A DNA stretch of 64,000 nt from an uncultured Cryomorphaceae bacterium (GTDB taxonomy: Bacteria > Bacteroidota > Bacteroidia > Flavobacteriales > Schleiferiaceae). Below, one piece after another: positions 32,335 through 42,810 of the stretch; within the stretch, counting starts at the first letter, position 1; each line of letters opens with the position of its first letter. The notes under the pieces were generated by a model. It saw only the letters and a list, made by a program, of their open reading frames with translations, searched no databases and was not told the origin of the DNA. Position numbers and translations under genes: made by a program. The stretch covers positions 884,068 through 948,067 of the forward strand of contig CAKZJV010000007.1 in NCBI GenBank assembly GCA_937120475.1. The letters run 5' to 3'.

Positions 32335-33363
32335 TTAAATTTTGAGAAGGGTTTCAGGCCGGTTGAGTTTACCGTTGGAAGTATATTCAAACCGGGCGAG
32401 GTTAATAATTTCCTTAGGGATTTCGTAAGGTGTAAGCTTTTGGAAAAGGTGCTTTACCTCCTCCTTTTTTATGGCTCTGGCCGTTTCCACCAACATTACC
32501 AGTTTATGCCCTAAATCCTTATCCGGTTTACCGGCTAAAAAGAATGGATAATCCCACCCGCCCATTTTAGCTTCTATCGCCTCGGGGAACAATTTCACCC
32601 CTCCACTATTCACCACATTGTCATAGCGCCCCAGCCACTTGAACTCATGGGGGCTTAATAATTCCACTACATCATTGGTAATTAGATTTTTTACGCCAAT
32701 ATCCGGTGAATGAATGACTAAACAATTCCGTTCATCGATATCAAAATGTACTCCATCCATAGCTTTGAAATGATCAGAACCTCCCGCGTTTAATCTTCGC
32801 ATCGCCACGTGAGAAATGGTTTCCGTCATTCCGTAAGTATGCCACACTTCACCGGTACGTTTTTCCCGGAGTTTTGTTTCCAGATCAGGAGGAACAGGTC
32901 CTCCGCCAATGATCAGTTTTTGAATACAGCCCAGTTGATCCAGGGATTGGCTGGCCTGGTAAGGCACCATGGCCGCAAAATCAAAATTCCCAACCAGATT
33001 TTCCAAAGGCCTGGATTGTGGCTCTACAATATGAAGATCGAGCTTCCCTACCCACCAACGCATCAACATCATCAGGCCACCTACCTTATCCGTTGGCAGG
33101 CATAAAAGAGCCCGGTCGCCTGGCTTTACCTTTAAAAACCGCAGGGTTTTAAGGGCGGAGGCCTTCATGTGTTCTTTAGGTAACCGGATAGTTTTAGGAG
33201 CTCCGGTGGAGCCGGAAGTTTGTATTTCCAGGTAGGTTTGAGGGTTGTTAAATTGTCTGATAAAATCCTGAACCGGCTTTAATTCAGTCTTATGGGATAA
33301 ATTTACCGCCTTGATTGACAGCGATTTCCCTTTAAAAACAACTTTTTTTTCGTTTTCACCCAA
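32335..33363 (-). CDS. menE: o-Succinylbenzoate--CoA ligase-like AMP-binding enzyme
   Basis: ANL-superfamily enzyme of 342 residues that would activate o-succinylbenzoate as its CoA thioester in menaquinone synthesis. The adenylation loop TSGSTGAPKTIRL is near 50-62, followed by the TYGMTET motif near 176-182 and GRYDNVVNSGGVKLFP near 241-256; the C-terminal lid is short. It is shorter than proteobacterial MenE (about 450) but this size is common in flavobacteria as I recall. The start is TTG 33363. Unlike the other men genes it is separated by 106 nt and a hairpin terminator from menC. Confidence 0.88.
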   Translation of the reverse strand: MGENEKKVVFKGKSLSIKAVNLSHKTELKPVQDFIRQFNNPQTYLEIQTSGSTGAPKTIRLPKEHMKASALKTLRFLKVKPGDRALLCLPTDKVGGLMMLMRWWVGKLDLHIVEPQSRPLENLVGNFDFAAMVPYQASQSLDQLGCIQKLIIGGGPVPPDLETKLREKRTGEVWHTYGMTETISHVAMRRLNAGGSDHFKAMDGVHFDIDERNCLVIHSPDIGVKNLITNDVVELLSPHEFKWLGRYDNVVNSGGVKLFPEAIEAKMGGWDYPFFLAGKPDKDLGHKLVMLVETARAIKKEEVKHLFQKLTPYEIPKEIINLARFEYTSNGKLNRPETLLKI

Positions 33364-33383: not shown

Positions 33384-33470
33384 TGAGCTATAGTACAGTT
33401 CCTATTTCTATTAAGTCGAAAGTGACTTACCCTGTTCTAAAAAGCACCCCTCAAGAGGTGCTTTTTTTTT
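33384..33470 (+). ncRNA. Candidate small RNA between menE and menC
   Basis: This segment has a 6-bp hairpin, TAAGTC (33412-33417) with GACTTA (33424-33429), followed by a 10-bp GC-centred hairpin with a run of ten T on the plus strand. No coding frame is on the plus strand, so a plus-strand terminator here has no gene to end unless a short RNA is made. Equally, it could be a bidirectional terminator for menC on the minus strand, where the tail is only five U. The RNA is a hypothesis. Confidence 0.25.
33439..33470. terminator. Intrinsic terminator, strongest on the plus strand
   Basis: AAAAAGCACC (33439-33448) pairs perfectly with GGTGCTTTTT (33457-33466) around an 8-nt loop. The plus strand has ten consecutive T from 33462, an ideal terminator; the minus strand tail after the stem is TTTTT from the stem itself and then AGAAC. 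The minus-strand use would end the menI-menC transcript before menE. Confidence 0.75.
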
Positions 33471-34501
33471 TATAGGTTAATCTTCCAAACGCCTTCCACA
33501 TCGTAAGCTATTTCCCCATTTTCAATGTACAAGGGGCATGTAAAGTTGTTGGTGTAAAGGCTTCCGGTACCCAATCCTGAAGGCATGGGGTTATGCAAAG
33601 TGGCGTTCCACTGGGCAATGGCATTGAGCCCTACGTTACTTTCCAGTGCACTGGTTACCCACCAGCCTGCACCTACTTCCTCGCTTAGGGCCATCCACTC
33701 TTCACTCCCTTGAAAGCCCCCGACAAAACTGGGTTTTAAAATGATGTATTGCGGGCGAATGGTATGCAATAGTTCGCGCCTGCGCGATCCTTCAAAAACA
33801 CCGATCAATTCCTCATCCAGCGCAATGGGCAAAGGCGTTGCTTCGCAAAGTTGTGCCATTTCCTGCCACTGTCCTTTGGCGATGGGTTGCTCAATGGAGT
33901 GAATGCTTAATTCGGATAAACGGTGGAGTTTATCCATAGCCTCTGCTGCGGTGAAAGCCCCGTTGGCATCTACCCTTAACTGCAGTTCATTGGCTGAAAA
34001 CTCACTGCGGATGGCTTTAAGGATGGCGACCTCATCATTAAAACCCACCGCGCCCACTTTCATTTTTAAAACGCTAAAGCCCTCCTGTAAACGCTGTTTT
34101 ACCTGCTCTTTCATGAAGCCGATATCCCCCATCCATATTAAACCGTTAATGGGTTGCCGGGCTTTACCAAGGGTAAAATCGGTATTGAAGAGAATATGAT
34201 TTTCGGTTTCCAGATCCTTCAAAGCCATTTCCAAACCAAACTGTATGGAGGGGAATTCTTTATAGTCGCCATAAAGCACTTCAAAGGGCTTATCGATCTC
34301 GCGGGTCAATTGTTCCAGTCGGGATTCGTAATCCGGACGATCATCCACACTAAGCCCGCGCAACAGCCCGCACTCCCCTATGCCGGTTTTCCCACCTTTT
34401 TCAAGCTGCAGAAAATAAGAGTCTTTGCTCCTTAAAATGCCACGGCTGGTACCACTGGGCTGTTTAAATCTTAGGGTATATTTTTTCCAGTGCGCTTTCA
34501 T
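33470..34501 (-). CDS. menC: o-Succinylbenzoate synthase
   Basis: Enolase-superfamily enzyme of 343 residues that dehydrates SHCHC to o-succinylbenzoate. The catalytic KMK-type motif appears as VLKMKVGAV near 144-152, followed by metal ligands in LRVDANGAF (near 177), IEQPI (near 204) and LDEELIG (near 229), and a final lysine in YIILKPSF near 252. It begins 1 nt after the menA stop. The start is ATG 34501. Confidence 0.93.
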   Translation of the reverse strand: MKAHWKKYTLRFKQPSGTSRGILRSKDSYFLQLEKGGKTGIGECGLLRGLSVDDRPDYESRLEQLTREIDKPFEVLYGDYKEFPSIQFGLEMALKDLETENHILFNTDFTLGKARQPINGLIWMGDIGFMKEQVKQRLQEGFSVLKMKVGAVGFNDEVAILKAIRSEFSANELQLRVDANGAFTAAEAMDKLHRLSELSIHSIEQPIAKGQWQEMAQLCEATPLPIALDEELIGVFEGSRRRELLHTIRPQYIILKPSFVGGFQGSEEWMALSEEVGAGWWVTSALESNVGLNAIAQWNATLHNPMPSGLGTGSLYTNNFTCPLYIENGEIAYDVEGVWKINL

Positions 34502-34502
34502 G

Positions 34503-35399
34503 CTATATCAGCTGACCTATACCAAAGAGCAAGGCAAACAGTAAAGTAGCCAAAGCCAACATTTTTAAGAGTGGTTCAAAGTCAGCGGATTGTTGGCCTT
34601 TTACCGCCCGGTACAGGTTTAACAGTACCAGGGGAATGCTGAGAAAATACAGATTTTGCCAAAAACTGCCCGGTACTATGGCATTGTAAACATAGGCCAG
34701 GTCCAGGGCCAAAATCAATAAAGCCCCGTGGTAATATTTGGCACCACGCAAGCCCATCAACACGGCCAGCGTGCGCTTGTTGTTTTTACGATCTTCTTCA
34801 ATATCACGCATATTGTTGAGGTTTAACACACCGATAGCCAGGAAACCCAATGAGGTAGCGGGTAAAAAAACCTCCCAATTTAAAAGATTGGACTGCAGAA
34901 AGTAAGACCCCACAACCCCCACATAACCGAAAAACAGTAACACCGATAAATCACCCAGACCGTGGTAGCCATAGGCCCTGCGGCCTACGGTATAGGTTAT
35001 AGCGGCAATTATGGCCAAAACCCCTAAACCGATAAAGCCCAAGGTTACTATAATGGGGAGGTCGCGCGTGGCGATAATGCTGAGCCAGGAACCAAAAACA
35101 AAGGATAAGACTGAAAAAAGAATTACCGCCTTACGCATTTGCTGTGAACTGATCCAGCCACTGGCTACCGCCCGCTGTTCACCGGTACGATTGGCATCAG
35201 AGCCTTTAATGCCATCACCATAATCATTGGCATAGTTGCTCAGCACCTGGTAGCAAAGGGTTGTTAATAAACTTAAAATGAATATTAGGGTGTCATAGTG
35301 GCCATTGGAAGCAGCCAGGCAGGTACCCAAAATGATACTGGAAAATGCCAACGGCAAGGTTCGAAGGCGCGCAGCGGCCACCCAGTGTTTCAATTGCAT
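34503..35399 (-). CDS. menA: 1,4-dihydroxy-2-naphthoate polyprenyltransferase
   Basis: UbiA-superfamily inner membrane prenyltransferase of 298 residues which joins the naphthoquinone ring to its isoprenoid tail, giving demethylmenaquinone. The first aspartate-rich motif is NYANDYGDGIKGSDA near 56-70, the second NMRDIEEDRKNNKRTLAV near 194-211; eight or nine membrane helices are spread through the protein. ATG 35399. The preceding bPH2 gene ends 45 nt upstream and menC follows 1 nt downstream. Confidence 0.95.
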   Translation of the reverse strand: MQLKHWVAAARLRTLPLAFSSIILGTCLAASNGHYDTLIFILSLLTTLCYQVLSNYANDYGDGIKGSDANRTGEQRAVASGWISSQQMRKAVILFSVLSFVFGSWLSIIATRDLPIIVTLGFIGLGVLAIIAAITYTVGRRAYGYHGLGDLSVLLFFGYVGVVGSYFLQSNLLNWEVFLPATSLGFLAIGVLNLNNMRDIEEDRKNNKRTLAVLMGLRGAKYYHGALLILALDLAYVYNAIVPGSFWQNLYFLSIPLVLLNLYRAVKGQQSADFEPLLKMLALATLLFALLFGIGQLI

Positions 35400-35444: not shown

Positions 35445-36929
35445 CTACATCCAGTCCTTTTGTGTGCCTTCCACGCGGTACAACACGTAGTTATAAACCT
35501 CACGGGCCTCCTGTTCATTCATTTGCAGCATGCGTAAGCGACCGGCTGCGGTATAAAGGTCGAGGTGCACCAGTTTTCTTCGCCTTTGAAAAATATTCTG
35601 CGCCAGCCTTACATTCTGCACCTTGAAAAGCTTGAGAGCGGCCGTTTCGGGAAAAACCCAACCTTTGGAGAGCAATATCATTTCTTTATTGCAGGCCAGC
35701 TTAACGGTAGGCTGGTATCGCCAGGCCAAATAAATACCGGAAAGAAGCCACAGGGCGGCCACACTCCAGAAAAGGGGAAACAAAAAGCCTAACCCGGCCA
35801 GCATAAGTGCAGGAATAAGGCCCGTCCATATACTGCGCTGCACAATTAAGAAGGTAGAAGCTTTAAACTCCACCATTTCGGAAGATTGCCACTCCGGCAA
35901 AAAGCTATCCTTAATTACCTGCAATTGCTCGAACCGAAGACCGGGAACCTTGAGCGACTGGCGATCGCTGGATTCGAGGCTACCGGCTTGCTTAACCACG
36001 AGGGTGCGCAGTCCTGCCAGTTTACGCAGCGGGTTACTGCTCCATTTTATGAACTGTATTTTACTGCGCGGTATCTGGTATTCCACCCTTCGCAAAAGCC
36101 CTGAAATTAGTTTGGCCCCGCTGCCATCGATGAAAAAACGGAGGTTGTAATAGCGTAAAAAGGACTGAATGAGAGAAAGTACCACCGCTACCACCGCAAA
36201 AACTCCAACGGCTAAGGGCAGTATTTGTAGCCAACGGTTTACCACAAAGTTTTTTTGGGTTTCAAAAATGGGTTCAAAACGTTGCAGGTACTCTTCAAAC
36301 TGCCAGAAGTAACCAAAAATAACCGCCATAAGGGCAAGCCCGTTGCGCAGGTGGTTCTCGGTAATTCCAACCCGTAAAACATCTGCAGGACTCAGCTTTA
36401 CCAAAGGTTCAGAAGGCCCGGTTTCCCACTCCGCATCTTCCTCTCCTTCCTCCTGTTCCTGGTTTTGCTTTTTCATGCGGATGAGGAAATTTTGGATGTT
36501 GCGGGCGTAATTTCCCTCCAACGCAGCAATTTCGATTTCCTTTTGTGAGGAGCCAGCCGTATCCACTTTTAATCCAACAACACCTAAAATTCTTTGTACG
36601 GGATTTTGATTGATGTGAACCGACTGAATACGGTCAAAGGGAATAGTAACCTTATCCCTACTGAGGACCCCTTTTTCAATGATGAATTGCTGCCCGCTTA
36701 CGTAAAAAAAGAACCTGCGGTACTGCAGTATCGAGGTGATTAATAAAGCGAATACGATCAGGGAAATTATAACCTGGAACCAGCCCGAAGAAAGATCGAC
36801 CTGGAAAAGATATTGTCCGAAGAAAAAGGAAATAAAAATGTTTACCCCGGTTCTGAGGTTTTTAAAGAACAGCACCACCACACTAACCGTGGCTTGCCTT
36901 TTGGGCTGTTTAAGGTCCGGCTCATTCAT
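35445..36929 (-). CDS. Membrane protein with repeated bPH2 domains (YdbT-like)
   Basis: About 494 residues. I choose ATG 36929 (MNEPDLKQPKRQ) over GTG 36938. Paired membrane helices occur near 20-60, 195-255 and 365-410, each followed by a bacterial pleckstrin-homology (bPH2, DUF304) domain: IPFDRIQSVHINQNPVQR near 95-112, IPRSKIQFIKWSSNPLRKLAG near 290-310, and a third with KLFKVQNVRLAQNIFQRR near 430-447. An acidic low-complexity insert (QEQEEGEEDAEWE) lies near 155. B. subtilis YdbT with YdbS is the closest known pair and has been linked to resistance to peptides, but the biochemical function is unknown. It overlaps the partner gene by 8 nt. Confidence 0.88.
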   Translation of the reverse strand: MNEPDLKQPKRQATVSVVVLFFKNLRTGVNIFISFFFGQYLFQVDLSSGWFQVIISLIVFALLITSILQYRRFFFYVSGQQFIIEKGVLSRDKVTIPFDRIQSVHINQNPVQRILGVVGLKVDTAGSSQKEIEIAALEGNYARNIQNFLIRMKKQNQEQEEGEEDAEWETGPSEPLVKLSPADVLRVGITENHLRNGLALMAVIFGYFWQFEEYLQRFEPIFETQKNFVVNRWLQILPLAVGVFAVVAVVLSLIQSFLRYYNLRFFIDGSGAKLISGLLRRVEYQIPRSKIQFIKWSSNPLRKLAGLRTLVVKQAGSLESSDRQSLKVPGLRFEQLQVIKDSFLPEWQSSEMVEFKASTFLIVQRSIWTGLIPALMLAGLGFLFPLFWSVAALWLLSGIYLAWRYQPTVKLACNKEMILLSKGWVFPETAALKLFKVQNVRLAQNIFQRRRKLVHLDLYTAAGRLRMLQMNEQEAREVYNYVLYRVEGTQKDWM

Positions 36930-37425
36930 AACGGGCACTTAGCCGGGTAATATGGTCACGTAAACGATGAGCTGCCTCCTTTTTTAAGCCACCGATGCTC
37001 AGATCGCTGGTGGAGCCCCCGGCTGTGTATATCCGTACCGAGGCCAGTTCAAAGAGTCTCCCCAATGGTCCCTGGCTAACTTCACAGTGCTGAAGGCGAT
37101 TAAGTGGTATGCTGGTCATCGAAAAAAATAGCAATCCACTTTTGTAGCTAATGTCGTTTTCGCGCAAGGCATAGCCCTTGATCTTAAAACCACGCACCTC
37201 TATAAAAGTGACCAACAAGGCTAAAACCAAAAGCGGAGCTATCAGCATCCACAAGGCTAAACTGGCTGAAAAGCTTACAAATACTAAAATACCGGCTGCT
37301 ATCAGGAAAAAAATTCCCCAACCCGTGAGGCGCATCCACAGGTAATCCGGTTCCAGCGAATGAAACTCCACTTCTTCAATTTGCGGCAGTTCATCAGGTT
37401 CTATCTGAAGGTTGCTGAATAACAT
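36922..37425 (-). CDS. bPH2 domain membrane protein (YdbS-like)
   Basis: 167 residues: two membrane helices (about 33-55 and 58-78) and one bPH2 domain with SIPLNRLQHCEVSQGPLGR near 107-125 and the VRIYTAGGS element near 135-143. It is the one-domain partner of the three-domain protein that follows. Its ATG shares one base with the menD stop (TAATG), so both bPH2 genes are embedded in the men operon between menD and menA. Confidence 0.87.
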   Translation of the reverse strand: MLFSNLQIEPDELPQIEEVEFHSLEPDYLWMRLTGWGIFFLIAAGILVFVSFSASLALWMLIAPLLVLALLVTFIEVRGFKIKGYALRENDISYKSGLLFFSMTSIPLNRLQHCEVSQGPLGRLFELASVRIYTAGGSTSDLSIGGLKKEAAHRLRDHITRLSARYE

Positions 37426-39110
37426 TAAGCTCCTTTTATGGCTTTAAAATAGTCTTTTAAAACCTCCGGGCTTTCCAGCCGGGGGGTAAAAATTTCTAAG
37501 ATAGCCCGTTCGCGTTTATTGAAAAACCCGGGGAGTATTTTGCGTAGTTCTTCTTTACCGTGGGCCGATTGATACTCGATTTTAAAAGTATCGGCTACAC
37601 CCCGGGCATTTAAATTATGTACCGTTTCCTGGTAGGTTTCCAGGCTCTTCTGGCCTTCCGGACCCGGGATAATTCTGAAAATATTCCCTCCCTGATTATT
37701 GAGGATAATGATCTTGATATTATCGGGTAGGCGATTATTCCAAAAGGCGTTGGAATCGTAGAGAAAGGCCACATCACCGGTGATGAGGGTCAGTTGCTTA
37801 TTGGTGGTTAGGGCGTGACCGATGGCAGTGGCGGTACAACCGTCTATTCCACTGGTACCCCGGTTGGCATAATGTTCACGACCGGTGGGGTGATCGAACA
37901 ATTGGGCGTAGCGGATGGCGGCACTATTGGCGCAGTGCAAAATACCATCCTCCGGCATCTGTTCTAAAATTTGTCCGAAGGCGGTAAGATCTGAAAATAC
38001 CGCTGACTCTATGAAAGCCGTGTGTGTGTTTTGCTTTTCGCGATTTATGCCCAGCCAATGATCAGAATAAGAAGATTCTCGTTTATCGGTAAACTCAAAA
38101 AGCTGCTCAAAAAAATTATCGGCCTGAACCGGAATTACGGTTTGTAAACATTGAAAACTATCCCTCAACTCTCCGGCTTCATCCACATGCCAATGGTGCT
38201 TTGGTACATGGTCTTTCAGAAATTTTTTCACCATCTTACTTACTATTTCCCCGCCTATGGTGATCAAAAGATCGGGGGCCAGTCCGGCTTTTTCTTCCTC
38301 ACTAATGGTATTGATTAAACGGTCGATGGTGGAAATGGCGTTAGGCAGTGAAAGATTACTCACCGTTTCGGAGAGTACCAAGAAGGGGCTGCGCTCATTC
38401 AATTCTTGTATAGCTTCCTCCAGCCAGGGGTTGCTGTCCATTTGCCCGGCCAGTATCATTATTTTCGGGGCATTATTCCAAAGTTCACCCAGGCCGGTAA
38501 GGTAGTCCTCATCTAAAAGGAGTTCCGGTTTAAGCTTTTGGATAAGGTGAACTTCTTCCTGCTCCGGCATATCGGCAACGGTTTCATACAGTGGCTCGTT
38601 AAAAGGCACGTTTACATGCACTGGCCCTTGGTGCAGTTCCATCATGGCCTGGTTCAGCAGCCGCTGGTTGTAATGCCGGGAAAGTTCATCAGCCGGATCA
38701 CGGAGCAAATTGGCTGAAAAACAAATGTGCTGCTCAAAAATATTCTCCTGCCGTATGGTTTGCCCCATTCCCTGATCAATAAACTCTTTGGGGCGGTCAG
38801 CGGTAATTAGCAATAAAGGTAAACGTTGATAAAAAGCCTCCGTTACTGCCGGATAAAAATTAACGGCAGCCGAGCCTGAACTGCAAATTACGGCTACCGG
38901 AGCCTTTAAGCCTATGGTCATACCCATAGCGGTAAAAGCAGCTACTCTTTCATCGGGCACGGAAATACACTCGTAATCGGCATCAGCCGTAAAGGCTAAT
39001 ATAAGGGGAGCATTACGGCTTCCGGGAGCAATTACCACGTGGCGACAATGGTGGGCCTTGAGTATTTTGGCCACATAACGGGCGTTTAAAAGGGCCGAAG
39101 TTTCAGGCAT
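37425..39110 (-). CDS. menD: 2-Succinyl-5-enolpyruvyl-6-hydroxy-3-cyclohexene-1-carboxylate synthase
   Basis: ThDP-dependent enzyme of 561 residues that adds a succinyl semialdehyde unit from 2-oxoglutarate to isochorismate. The N-terminal pyrimidine-binding domain shows VIAPGSRNAPL near 23-33 and the activating glutamate in SVPDERVAAF near 52; QGMGQTIRQ near 110-118 follows. The ThDP-Mg loop is GDVAFLYDSNAFWNN near 440-454, a version of GD-x(24-30)-NN, with NNQGGNIF after it. ATG 39110, 3 nt after menF; TAATG overlap with the next gene. Confidence 0.96.
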   Translation of the reverse strand: MPETSALLNARYVAKILKAHHCRHVVIAPGSRNAPLILAFTADADYECISVPDERVAAFTAMGMTIGLKAPVAVICSSGSAAVNFYPAVTEAFYQRLPLLLITADRPKEFIDQGMGQTIRQENIFEQHICFSANLLRDPADELSRHYNQRLLNQAMMELHQGPVHVNVPFNEPLYETVADMPEQEEVHLIQKLKPELLLDEDYLTGLGELWNNAPKIMILAGQMDSNPWLEEAIQELNERSPFLVLSETVSNLSLPNAISTIDRLINTISEEEKAGLAPDLLITIGGEIVSKMVKKFLKDHVPKHHWHVDEAGELRDSFQCLQTVIPVQADNFFEQLFEFTDKRESSYSDHWLGINREKQNTHTAFIESAVFSDLTAFGQILEQMPEDGILHCANSAAIRYAQLFDHPTGREHYANRGTSGIDGCTATAIGHALTTNKQLTLITGDVAFLYDSNAFWNNRLPDNIKIIILNNQGGNIFRIIPGPEGQKSLETYQETVHNLNARGVADTFKIEYQSAHGKEELRKILPGFFNKRERAILEIFTPRLESPEVLKDYFKAIKGA

Positions 39111-39113
39111 ATT

Positions 39114-40076
39114 TTATCGGTCTTGGATTACCTTTAAAAGGGTTTGCATTTTGGCTTCGGTTTCCTCCCACTCATCGGCAGGTACCGAATCGGCTAATAT
39201 ACCGCCACCAGCGTATAAAGTTACTGCATCACTATACACTTGCATACACCTAAGGTTTACATAGTAATGGAAAGCCTCCGGGTTTTTTAAACCGAAATAA
39301 CCAGTATAGTAATCACGTTTATGCCGTTCGTTTTCAAATATATATTGTAATGCTTCCTGCCGGGGATAGCCGCCCACGGCCGGGGTAGGGTGCAGCTCGT
39401 GAAGCAATTGCTCAACATCCAGTTTTCCCGTAACATCGGCCTGAAGGTGGTTTACAAAATGTACCAGGTTACCGGCCTCCATGGGGCTGCGCTCCATCAC
39501 CTCCACAGCGGACAGGCCCTTTGCGGATGTCAATACCCTTAGAATATAACGTGTTACGATAGCTTGCTCCTCTTCTTCCTTGGCCGTAAAGCTATGCTCC
39601 TCCCCTTTTTTGCGGGTTCCGGCCAGGCTCATACTATTCACTAAGCCATCGCTGCACGATATCAATAGTTCCGGTGAAGCTCCCATCCAGGTTCCGCTAT
39701 CCTCATGGTGAAATAAATAAACGCAGGCCCGTGGGTATTGCTCGCGCAAAGCATGAAACCACAGTAAGGGACGGCTTTTCATCTTTAAGGTCAACGGTCT
39801 TGAAATCACCACCTTTCCCCAACGTTCAGCGGCAATGGTACGGGCGGTATTTTGGATGAGTGTCAGGTAATTTTCACGGCTGTAATTCTGGTTCCCAGCC
39901 GGAGCTTCGGGCAAGCTGGGTTCCGGAGCTTCATCAATTTCTTCCAGGTAAACCCGTATTCGCTTTCTTTCAGTGGTAAAGGGCACAAAGTCAAATTGCA
40001 GTTCCGAATCCTTTACCTCCCGGAAAACCCTGTATTCCTTTGAGCCCGGTGGGCTGTAGTACAATAAGGTTTGCAA
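39114..40076 (-). CDS. menF: Isochorismate synthase
   Basis: Chorismate-binding enzyme of 320 residues that makes isochorismate, the first menaquinone-specific step. Conserved elements are WMGASPELLI near 133-142, SLAGTRKKGEEH near 153-164, the HPTPAVGGYPRQEAL segment near 232-246, and YTGYFGL near 261, ending with the GGGI element near 295. The start is TTG 40076, 4 nt after the menI stop. It is shorter than E. coli MenF (431) through a reduced N-terminal subdomain, which appears normal for Bacteroidota. Related anthranilate or aminodeoxychorismate synthases are excluded mainly by position. Confidence 0.92.
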   Translation of the reverse strand: MQTLLYYSPPGSKEYRVFREVKDSELQFDFVPFTTERKRIRVYLEEIDEAPEPSLPEAPAGNQNYSRENYLTLIQNTARTIAAERWGKVVISRPLTLKMKSRPLLWFHALREQYPRACVYLFHHEDSGTWMGASPELLISCSDGLVNSMSLAGTRKKGEEHSFTAKEEEEQAIVTRYILRVLTSAKGLSAVEVMERSPMEAGNLVHFVNHLQADVTGKLDVEQLLHELHPTPAVGGYPRQEALQYIFENERHKRDYYTGYFGLKNPEAFHYYVNLRCMQVYSDAVTLYAGGGILADSVPADEWEETEAKMQTLLKVIQDR

Positions 40077-40080
40077 AATA

Positions 40081-40506
40081 TTAAGCCTTAAGGGGAACTA
40101 TCATATTGGTGAGCTTGCAGTGGGATACCAACTTACCTTCCTCATCCTCAATCCGTATTTCCCATAAATGGGTACTGCGGCCTTTATGTAAAATTTGGGC
40201 GGTGGCCGTTACCGTACCCTCCTTTTTGCTACGTATATGATTACAACTGATCTCAATGCCCAAAACCGCGTATTCGGAAGGATCGGCATAAAGGCAGCTG
40301 GAGGCACTGCCCAGGCTTTCGGCCAGTGCTGCTGAGGCCCCGCCATGTAATAAACCCATAGGTTGATGAACCCTGGGATTAACCGGCATGGTAGCTTTTA
40401 CCATCCCCGCCTCGGCATCCACATCCACGTATTGGATGTTCAGGGTTTCCATCAAGGTACCGGGAACCATATCATTAAAGCGTTTCAGAATTTCGCTTTT
40501 CTCCAT
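40081..40506 (-). CDS. menI: Hotdog-fold thioesterase, probable 1,4-dihydroxy-2-naphthoyl-CoA hydrolase
   Basis: PaaI/MenI-type hotdog thioesterase of 141 residues. The signature HGGASAALAESLGS spans 54-67 with the likely catalytic E63; NHIRSKKEGTVTATA near 88-102 follows the family pattern. At the head of the men operon it probably cleaves DHNA-CoA made by MenB, although menB itself is not in the window. ATG 40506 is preceded by a perfect -7 box. Confidence 0.88.
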   Translation of the reverse strand: MEKSEILKRFNDMVPGTLMETLNIQYVDVDAEAGMVKATMPVNPRVHQPMGLLHGGASAALAESLGSASSCLYADPSEYAVLGIEISCNHIRSKKEGTVTATAQILHKGRSTHLWEIRIEDEEGKLVSHCKLTNMIVPLKA

Positions 40507-40530
40507 AAAACTGTAGTATTAAAGTATGGA

Positions 40531-40557
40531 CAAAGTTAAAATATAGGTTTTGGCCAA
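40531..40557 (-). promoter_or_regulatory. Promoter of the men operon
   Basis: On the minus strand TTG, a 16-nt spacer, and TAACTTTG (positions 40538-40531), a perfect TAnnTTTG -7 box, precede menI. A start near 40526 would leave a leader of about 20 nt. The spacer is 1 nt shorter than the usual 17-23. Confidence 0.55.
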
Positions 40558-40561
40558 TAGC

Positions 40562-40672
40562 TCAGATCACAAAAATCAACACATCACGCAGCAAGTACCA
40601 GCATAGCGATAGAATAATCGCCTTAAGTACGATGAGGAAAAAAACGCGAATAGCCCGCTCTCTTTGCGACAT
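40562..40672 (-). CDS. 36-residue single-pass membrane peptide (new small ORF)
   Basis: Short gene starting ATG 40672 and ending TGA 40562. The product has a charged N-terminus (MSQRERAIR), a continuous hydrophobic helix from about residue 9 to 28 (VFFLIVLKAIILSLCWYLL), an RD pair and a short hydrophobic end (VLIFVI). A perfect -7 box TAATTTTG lies 20 nt upstream. It stands 55 nt before menI on the same strand, so it could lead the men operon. I do not know a family; the case rests on promoter, start and membrane pattern. Confidence 0.5.
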   Translation of the reverse strand: MSQRERAIRVFFLIVLKAIILSLCWYLLRDVLIFVI

Positions 40673-40691
40673 GAAAGTAATTTGCCTGTGG

Positions 40692-40699
40692 CAAAATTA
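40692..40699 (-). promoter_or_regulatory. -7 box of the 36-residue membrane peptide gene
   Basis: TAATTTTG on the minus strand (CAAAATTA on plus) is a perfect TAnnTTTG match, 19 nt before ATG 40672. I find no TTG at the normal -33 distance. Between this site and the thrS box at 40836 (about 136 nt) nothing else stands out. Confidence 0.4.
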
Positions 40700-40835
40700 C
40701 AGGATAATGAAGCTTAGGGGCAGATATTTCGGTTTAACCGCAGGATTTTAATGTTGAAACAAATAGGGCTTGTCTTCTTTTGAGTTTAGCAGGCCCAAAA
40801 GCCTTATCGGATAAGACCGGAGCGAGTCATTTTAT

Positions 40836-40843
40836 TATCTTTG
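40836..40843 (+). promoter_or_regulatory. -7 box of the thrS-infC-rpmI-rplT operon
   Basis: TATCTTTG, a perfect TAnnTTTG match with the frequently seen TC spacer and following GC, gives a start near 40848 and a leader of about 28 nt before thrS. No -33 TTG is obvious. There is no room for a T-box or other long leader after this start. Confidence 0.55.
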
Positions 40844-40875
40844 CACGCTTAAATTAAACCGTTTAAAATCGCTTT

Positions 40876-42810
40876 ATGATCAAGATCACCTTGCCGGATG
40901 GCAGCGTTAAGGAATTTCCTGAGGGTTCATCGGCCTTTGACGTGGCTATGGGCATTAGCTCAGGCCTGGCCCGTAATGTTTTATCCGCAAGCTTTAACGG
41001 TCAAACGGTAGAAACGCGTGAGCCCCTACCTGGCGATGGTGAGTTGATTTTGTACACCTGGGATAACCCGGAAGGCCAAAAAGCTTTTTGGCATAGTTCA
41101 GCCCACGTGTTGGCACAAACCCTGGAACAAATGTACCCGGGTATCAAACTAACCATTGGGCCGGCCATTGATAACGGCTTTTATTATGATGTTGATTTAG
41201 GAGAACACAGCATAGGGGAAGCTGATTTTGCGGCTATTGAAAAGAAAATGCTGGAAAATGCCCGCGCCAAATCGGAGTTTAAAATGCGGGAGGTAAGTAA
41301 GGCCGATGCCCTGCAAGCCTACAGTGATAATGAGTTTAAAACCGAGCTGATCCAAAATTTGCAGGACGGGGAAATTACCTTTTGCGATCATGCTGAGTTT
41401 ACGGACCTGTGCCGCGGTGGACACCTCCCCAATACCGGTTTTATTAAAGCCGTAAAAATTATGAATGTGGCGGGTGCCTACTGGCGGGGTGACGAAAATA
41501 AACCTCAGCTTACCCGTATTTACGGAATTTCCTTCCCCAAGGCTTCCATGCTTACCGAATACCTGGAAAGACTGGAAGAAGCCAAAAAACGTGATCACCG
41601 CAAACTGGGCAAGGAGTTAGAGCTGTTTACCTTTTCCCAAAAAGTTGGACAAGGGTTACCGCTATGGCTGCCTAAAGGTGCCGAACTGAGGGAAAGGTTG
41701 GAGCAGTTCCTCAAAAAAGCCCAACGCAAAGCGGGCTATGAGCCGGTAATCAGTCCACACATCGGCAACAAGGAACTCTATGTAACCAGCGGCCACTACG
41801 CCAAGTATGGTAAAGACAGCTTTCAACCCATCCACACTCCCGAAGAGGATGAGGAGTACCTGTTAAAGCCCATGAATTGCCCGCATCACTGCGAGATCTA
41901 CAAAAGCCAGCCACGCTCCTATCGCGACCTTCCCATTCGTTTTGCAGAGTTCGGAACGGTATATCGTTACGAGCAAAGTGGCGAGTTACACGGACTTACC
42001 CGGGTAAGGGGGTTTACACAGGATGACGCTCACCTTTTTTGCATGCCCGATCAATTGAAGGATGAATTCAAGAAGGTGATAGACCTGGTGCTCTACATCT
42101 TTAAAACCCTTGATTTTAAGGAATATACCGCTCAAATCTCCCTGCGCGATAAGGAAGACCGCAGCAAGTACATCGGTTCGGACGAAAACTGGGAAAAGGC
42201 GGAACAGGCCATTATTGAGGCAGCCGAAGAAAAACAACTCAATACCATTGTGGAATACGGTGAAGCGGCCTTTTACGGACCTAAGCTTGATTTTATGGTA
42301 AAAGATGCCCTGGGCAGGCAGTGGCAATTGGGAACCATACAAGTGGATTATAACCTTCCCGAGCGTTTTGAACTGGAGTATAAAGGGGCTGACAATGAAA
42401 TGCACCGCCCGGTAATGATCCACCGTGCACCTTTTGGCAGCATGGAGCGTTTTGTAGCCGTACTGCTGGAACACTGTGGTGGCGATTTTCCACTGTGGCT
42501 TACCCCCAACCAGGTGATCATTTTGCCTATCAGCGAAAAATACGCTGCATACGCGGACAAAGTTTCGTATTTGCTTAAAAATTACGACCTTCGCACGCTC
42601 GTTGACCATCGCAGTGAAAAAACCGGACGCAAAATCCGTGATGCTGAGTTGGCCAAAATTCCTTACATGCTTATTGTAGGTGAGCAAGAGGAAGTTGCCG
42701 GTACCGTATCGGTGCGGAAACACGGAGATGGTGATCAGGGCACAATGAGTATTGAAGACTTTGCCAGCCTTGTAAACCAGGAGGTAAACGAAAAAATCGG
42801 TGCCTTTTAA
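40876..42810 (+). CDS. thrS: Threonyl-tRNA synthetase
   Basis: Class II synthetase of 644 residues, full length. The TGS domain is at 1-62, the editing domain (about 65-225) has the [13 protein letters not shown] and CRGGHL metal-binding motifs, the catalytic domain shows motif 2 in [13 protein letters not shown] and [23 protein letters not shown] (about 335-395), and motif 3 with [11 protein letters not shown] near 516-526. The anticodon-binding domain forms the last 110 residues. It heads the translation operon thrS-infC-rpmI-rplT, an order conserved in many bacteria. Confidence 0.98.

Follow-up and report, generated by a model that had tools for sequence, protein, structure and literature searches.

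A probable lineage-restricted gene for a predicted single-span membrane microprotein between thrS and menI in a Cryomorphaceae bacterium

Introduction

Does the largest intergenic gap of a bacterial genome segment hold a protein-coding gene too short for routine annotation and, if so, what might its product do? The question is raised by the window, i.e. the whole 64,000-nucleotide stretch of DNA analysed here, in which the genes thrS and menI are separated by 369 nt (40507-40875). Once the main open reading frames had been filtered by hand, the runner-up among the window's gaps measured 284 nt. A first-pass annotation had placed in this gap a short frame with an ATG start, on the menI strand and just ahead of menI, preceded by a perfect -7 promoter box and encoding a small membrane peptide that might be linked to quinone synthesis.

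Results

Reading frame and gene neighbourhood

The proposed frame is present on the minus strand at 40562..40672, where 36 codons run from an ATG start to a TGA stop (MSQRERAIRVFFLIVLKAIILSLCWYLLRDVLIFVI). We describe it as a gene for a 36-aa single-span membrane microprotein on the basis of the open reading frame, its homologues, codon-level selection and a modelled helix over residues 3-35. The span first assigned to it, 40562-40699, is coding as far as 40672, whereas 40673-40699 comprises the leader and the promoter box.

A spacer of 55 nt (40507..40561, minus), with no terminator-like site or unusually stable structure, lies between the peptide stop codon and menI (40081..40506, minus), which encodes a 4HBT hotdog thioesterase. 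The gene run continues on the minus strand with menF (39114..40076, a chorismate-binding enzyme), menD (37425..39110, a TPP enzyme), a small and a large bPH_2 protein (36922..37425 and 35445..36938), menA (34503..35399, a UbiA prenyltransferase), menC (33470..34501) and a menE-type AMP-binding enzyme (32335..33363), all assigned by family matches. On the other side, the divergent neighbour (40876..42810, plus) is an open reading frame that keeps the same divergent position in relatives and that we take to be thrS, encoding threonyl-tRNA synthetase, from its sequence and the downstream infC-rpmI-rplT order rather than from a family scan. The order menI-menF-menD-bPH2-bPH2-menA-menC is common to all four genomes that carry the peptide (see below), and it is also present in relatives without it.

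Two further observations concern these neighbours. The placement of the two bPH_2 membrane proteins (35445-37425) between menD and menA is kept in several relatives, and no bPH_2 match was found at this place in three others (G007, G026 and G013). Rfam returned no match barring a sub-threshold one to snoU30 inside thrS (41320-41398; 27.7 bits, with the cut-off at 45), which we take as chance.

Homologues and selection on the protein

Full-length homologues lie between thrS and menI in both of the other genomes examined from the genus, G002 and G001 (86% and 64% identity to the peptide of the window's own genome, G000), and in G018, from another genus of the same family (39% over the full length; 41% over residues 3-34). 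The frame is open along its full length in all four genomes, and in each it stands on the menI strand, 46-58 nt before that gene.

Between G000 and G002, third codon positions account for 21 of the 30 nucleotide differences (binomial p 4e-5), with pS 0.82 and pN 0.11. Five amino-acid changes separate the two peptides, compared with a mean of 18.6 and a minimum of 10 in 20,000 simulations of 30 randomly placed substitutions. Ungapped identity between these genomes is 72% in the frame, 47% in the 108 nt upstream and 31% in the 54 nt downstream. Across the six carrier pairs, pS was 0.75-0.87 and pN 0.11-0.44 over 36 codons, with G018 entered minus one codon and its last residue to fit the columns; we give no dN/dS ratio because synonymous sites are saturated. 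Judged from the sequences, the frame is a genuine protein-coding gene on which purifying selection acts. The claim of a small membrane protein gene is thus strongly supported, both by syntenic homologues and by selection on the protein. Conservation of the amino-acid sequence where relatives share the gene order, which had been named as the telling check, holds among the nearest relatives and ends at a single clade.

The predicted protein

AlphaFold2 predicted one helix over residues 3-35 for the three sequences modelled (mean pLDDT 91), and the Kyte-Doolittle maximum over 19 residues is 2.5-3.0 in each of the four frames. The peptide combines the features of a small single-span membrane protein, being protein-coding, within 50 residues and built around one predicted hydrophobic membrane helix, and its basic N-terminus suggests an N-in orientation. 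Residues M1, F11, F12, L13, I14, K17, I20, L21, L23, L27 and D30 are invariant in the four sequences. The Cys and Trp that the first-pass annotation had stressed are not among them, position 24 reading C/C/I/I and position 25 W/W/W/Y; it is Lys17 and Asp30 that are invariant, although with only four sequences this conservation is weakly sampled. No helical face is significantly conserved (permutation p 0.38), so that conservation lends no support to a partner-contact face.

No Pfam or NCBIfam family scored above its cut-off for the three of the four sequences submitted, and the PDB held no match to the four-row profile. A PHROGs match at E 0.06, obtained with two sequences, was taken as chance. 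By these comparisons the peptide resembles known small membrane proteins and belongs to no tested family. Literature searches on Owenweeksia, on menaquinone biosynthesis with small membrane proteins and on Bacteroidetes small membrane proteins gave no title on the peptide among the matches listed.

Promoter boxes

The perfect -7-type box TAATTTTG (40692..40699, minus) stands, as first noted, 19 nt (40691-40673) before the ATG, with a predicted leader of ~15 nt. In G002 the box reads TAGATTTG and again stands exactly 19 nt from the start codon; at this distance neither G001 nor G018 has a perfect box. Counting both strands of the window, boxes of the form TAnnTTTG number 10 in 2,630 intergenic nt versus 48 in 61,370 genic nt, a 4.9-fold intergenic enrichment (Fisher p 1e-4). 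According to the available part of PMC6847099, the revised consensus TAHHTTTG disfavours the G found in TAGATTTG, and an A at -3 is favourable; the peptide start in G000 has no such A. By eye, no clear TTTG -33 element precedes the peptide.

A second -7-type box, TAACTTTG (40531..40538, minus), lies in the spacer between the peptide and menI and is likely the menI promoter. Perfect boxes also occur in this spacer in G002 and in G001, where the box is just 4 nt before the menI start codon, and there is none in G018, making three of the four carriers in all; menI can therefore probably be transcribed independently of the peptide. The divergent thrS has its own -7-type box, TATCTTTG (40836..40843, plus), and CAAAGATA is found on the menI strand near thrS at 12 of the 19 loci compared, including that of the window. 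Two terminator-like hairpins on the minus strand, one across the box and leader (40695-40681) and one inside the frame near its start (40658-40646), were taken as chance (two found; shuffle mean 0.5).

Distribution and origin

The four-sequence profile matched 4 of 88 family genomes at E 1e-22 to 2e-18. The remaining family matches were at E 0.004 or weaker and clearly partial, except for one in G017 that runs across two in-frame stops and was rejected; the profile thus did not find the peptide in the other 84 genomes, among which G005 gave no match at E 0.5. In sets that overlap with this one, 8 of 395 genomes of the order matched at E 0.002 or better, at full length only in the four carriers, and 395 genomes of the class gave three matches at E 0.001, namely the window's own and two partial ones. 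No relative was found in plasmids, phages or viral contigs. Weak profile or BLAST matches outside the four carriers had no men or thrS neighbours at the 22 + 2 loci tested and were set aside, as was a match in Halieaceae that covers the N-terminal helix of what is presumably a HlyD-type membrane-fusion protein, in a frame of 390 aa.

A screen for hydrophobic frames of 20-90 aa within 700 nt upstream of menI found the peptide at 4 of the best 30 menI loci among the matches listed. In 19 of them thrS lay within the stretch, and 15 of these 19 have no peptide. The thrS-menI gap measures 369-384 nt with the peptide; without it, the gap is 122-188 nt long at 7 loci and 544-885 nt at 8.

The gaps lacking the peptide are either short or mostly ~550-600 nt, those of genus g15 among them; at a locus of genus g10 (L020, 895-1501), the gap seems by eye to hold an opposite-strand gene, which we take to be DUF1801-like; and genus g9 (L038 in G026, L039 in G010) has another small membrane frame upstream of menI, of ~60 aa (MKDKVKK...GAVYGLG...), with no likeness to the peptide apparent by eye.

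In a tree built from up to eight proteins, for which 17 of 21 genomes were kept, several of them with partial data, the four carriers form one clade (support 0.86). The gene was therefore gained, or became recognisable, once. Restriction to one clade and absence from the same place in sister lineages are what would be expected of a de novo gene.

Discussion

The reading frame, its conservation, the selection acting on the protein, its synteny and its clade-restricted distribution are direct results of the analysis. Taken together, we think it probable that the frame is a genuine lineage-restricted gene, whose product would be a single-span inner-membrane microprotein, most likely expressed from its own promoter, that docks on a partner and tunes it. 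If the peptide is transcribed and translated as we infer, transcription would most likely start from its own promoter of the sigma-ABfr type. Its N-terminus, made basic by R4, R6 and R9, would remain in the cytoplasm, followed by one helix from about residue 10 and a hydrophobic tail; the invariant Lys17 would be buried and the invariant Asp30 would come to lie near the far side of the membrane. In this position the peptide may dock on a membrane protein and tune its activity or stability, as CydX and AcrZ do, a model prompted by the kind of peptide it is. Candidate partners, by position only, would be MenA or the pair of bPH_2 proteins encoded in the neighbouring men run.

The proposed link to quinone synthesis stood as far as the location before menI on the same strand is concerned, and gained no support beyond it. 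The peptide is no general part of menaquinone synthesis, since 84 of 88 family genomes and 15 of the 19 menI loci holding thrS are without it; nor is it required for that synthesis in general, since the men run keeps its order where the peptide is missing. In this clade it may still head the men operon and specifically tune menaquinone synthesis, e.g. with MenA or the bPH_2 proteins as binding partners. In every carrier the frame lies on the menI strand, 46-58 nt ahead of that gene; this position, the men order shared by the four carriers and the window's terminator-free spacer are consistent with such a role. Against these stand the unchanged men order in relatives lacking the peptide, the -7-type box that three of the four carriers have in the spacer ahead of menI, and the consideration that any gene in the thrS-menI gap would hold its place irrespective of its role. 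We therefore regard a men-specific function as possible but rather unlikely.

A more extended scenario, which we hold with somewhat less confidence still, is that the gene was born once from intergenic thrS-menI DNA in the common ancestor of the two genera and was then fixed by selection as a lineage-specific regulator, acting either on quinone synthesis or on some other membrane enzyme.

It is improbable that the frame encodes a cis-acting leader peptide whose translation or membrane insertion controls menI in the manner of an attenuator or arrest peptide. Such a role would suit a short same-strand frame immediately ahead of an operon, but selection runs along the helix and not at the C-terminal end, and the menI box lies downstream of the peptide. 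Moreover, no regulatory RNA structure was found between peptide and operon in G000, G002 or G001, where the spacers fold no better than their shuffles (z 0.50, -0.91 and 0.52, respectively; 55 of 58 nt folded in G002 and 43 of 46 nt in G001).

Toxins such as TisB have a similar size and a hydrophobic helix with Lys and Asp. A type I toxin-like membrane peptide under antisense RNA control is very unlikely here despite this likeness, given that the gene is single-copy in G000 (the second profile match in that genome covers 17 residues within a frame of 349 aa), holds a fixed place across two genera and has no phage or plasmid relatives. An antisense promoter, sought by the TAnnTTTG consensus only, was not found over the gene; the single opposite-strand box is that of thrS at 40836. 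Finally, a non-coding conserved element or a chance frame, which short length and the lack of a family match might suggest, is hardly credible in view of the third-position bias, the low pN relative to pS and a frame open in four genomes.

The locus clearly illustrates how a protein-coding gene can escape length cut-offs, and the range over which this gene is recognisable is bounded by synteny. If the peptide is tied to menaquinone synthesis, a pathway that is otherwise conserved would here be tuned in a lineage-specific way. If the gene arose from non-coding DNA, it would record a small-gene birth that took place at a fixed locus and could be mapped onto a tree.

Known systems help to place the peptide. 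CydX has a single membrane helix, as is predicted for the peptide, which is also like it in size and in having few conserved residues. CydX-like small subunits of respiratory complexes (37 aa in E. coli) have few conserved residues and often go unannotated, as the available portion of PMC4325964 describes. Unlike CydX, the peptide has no Pfam or NCBIfam match (three of four sequences), is encoded between thrS and the men run, rather than next to cydAB, in every one of the four carriers, and occurs in one clade of one family. AcrZ, a small transmembrane protein that docks on a large membrane protein and tunes a transporter (PMC7267776, in the part available), could serve as a model of how docking works, but a search of the PDB with the profile revealed no sequence relation. 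The 27-aa small membrane protein YohP of E. coli, described as stress-related in the accessible text of PMC12719787, is likewise very small, and a general membrane-level effect is possible for the peptide too, although the peptide bears no sign of stress control and the two are set side by side by description, not by sequence. The closest parallel in distribution may be the taxonomically restricted, or orphan, small genes, which are intergenic and found in one lineage only (available parts of PMC10003748 and PMC5597208). The peptide gene is likewise a small intergenic gene of a single lineage, and for it both synteny and selection have been demonstrated across two genera.
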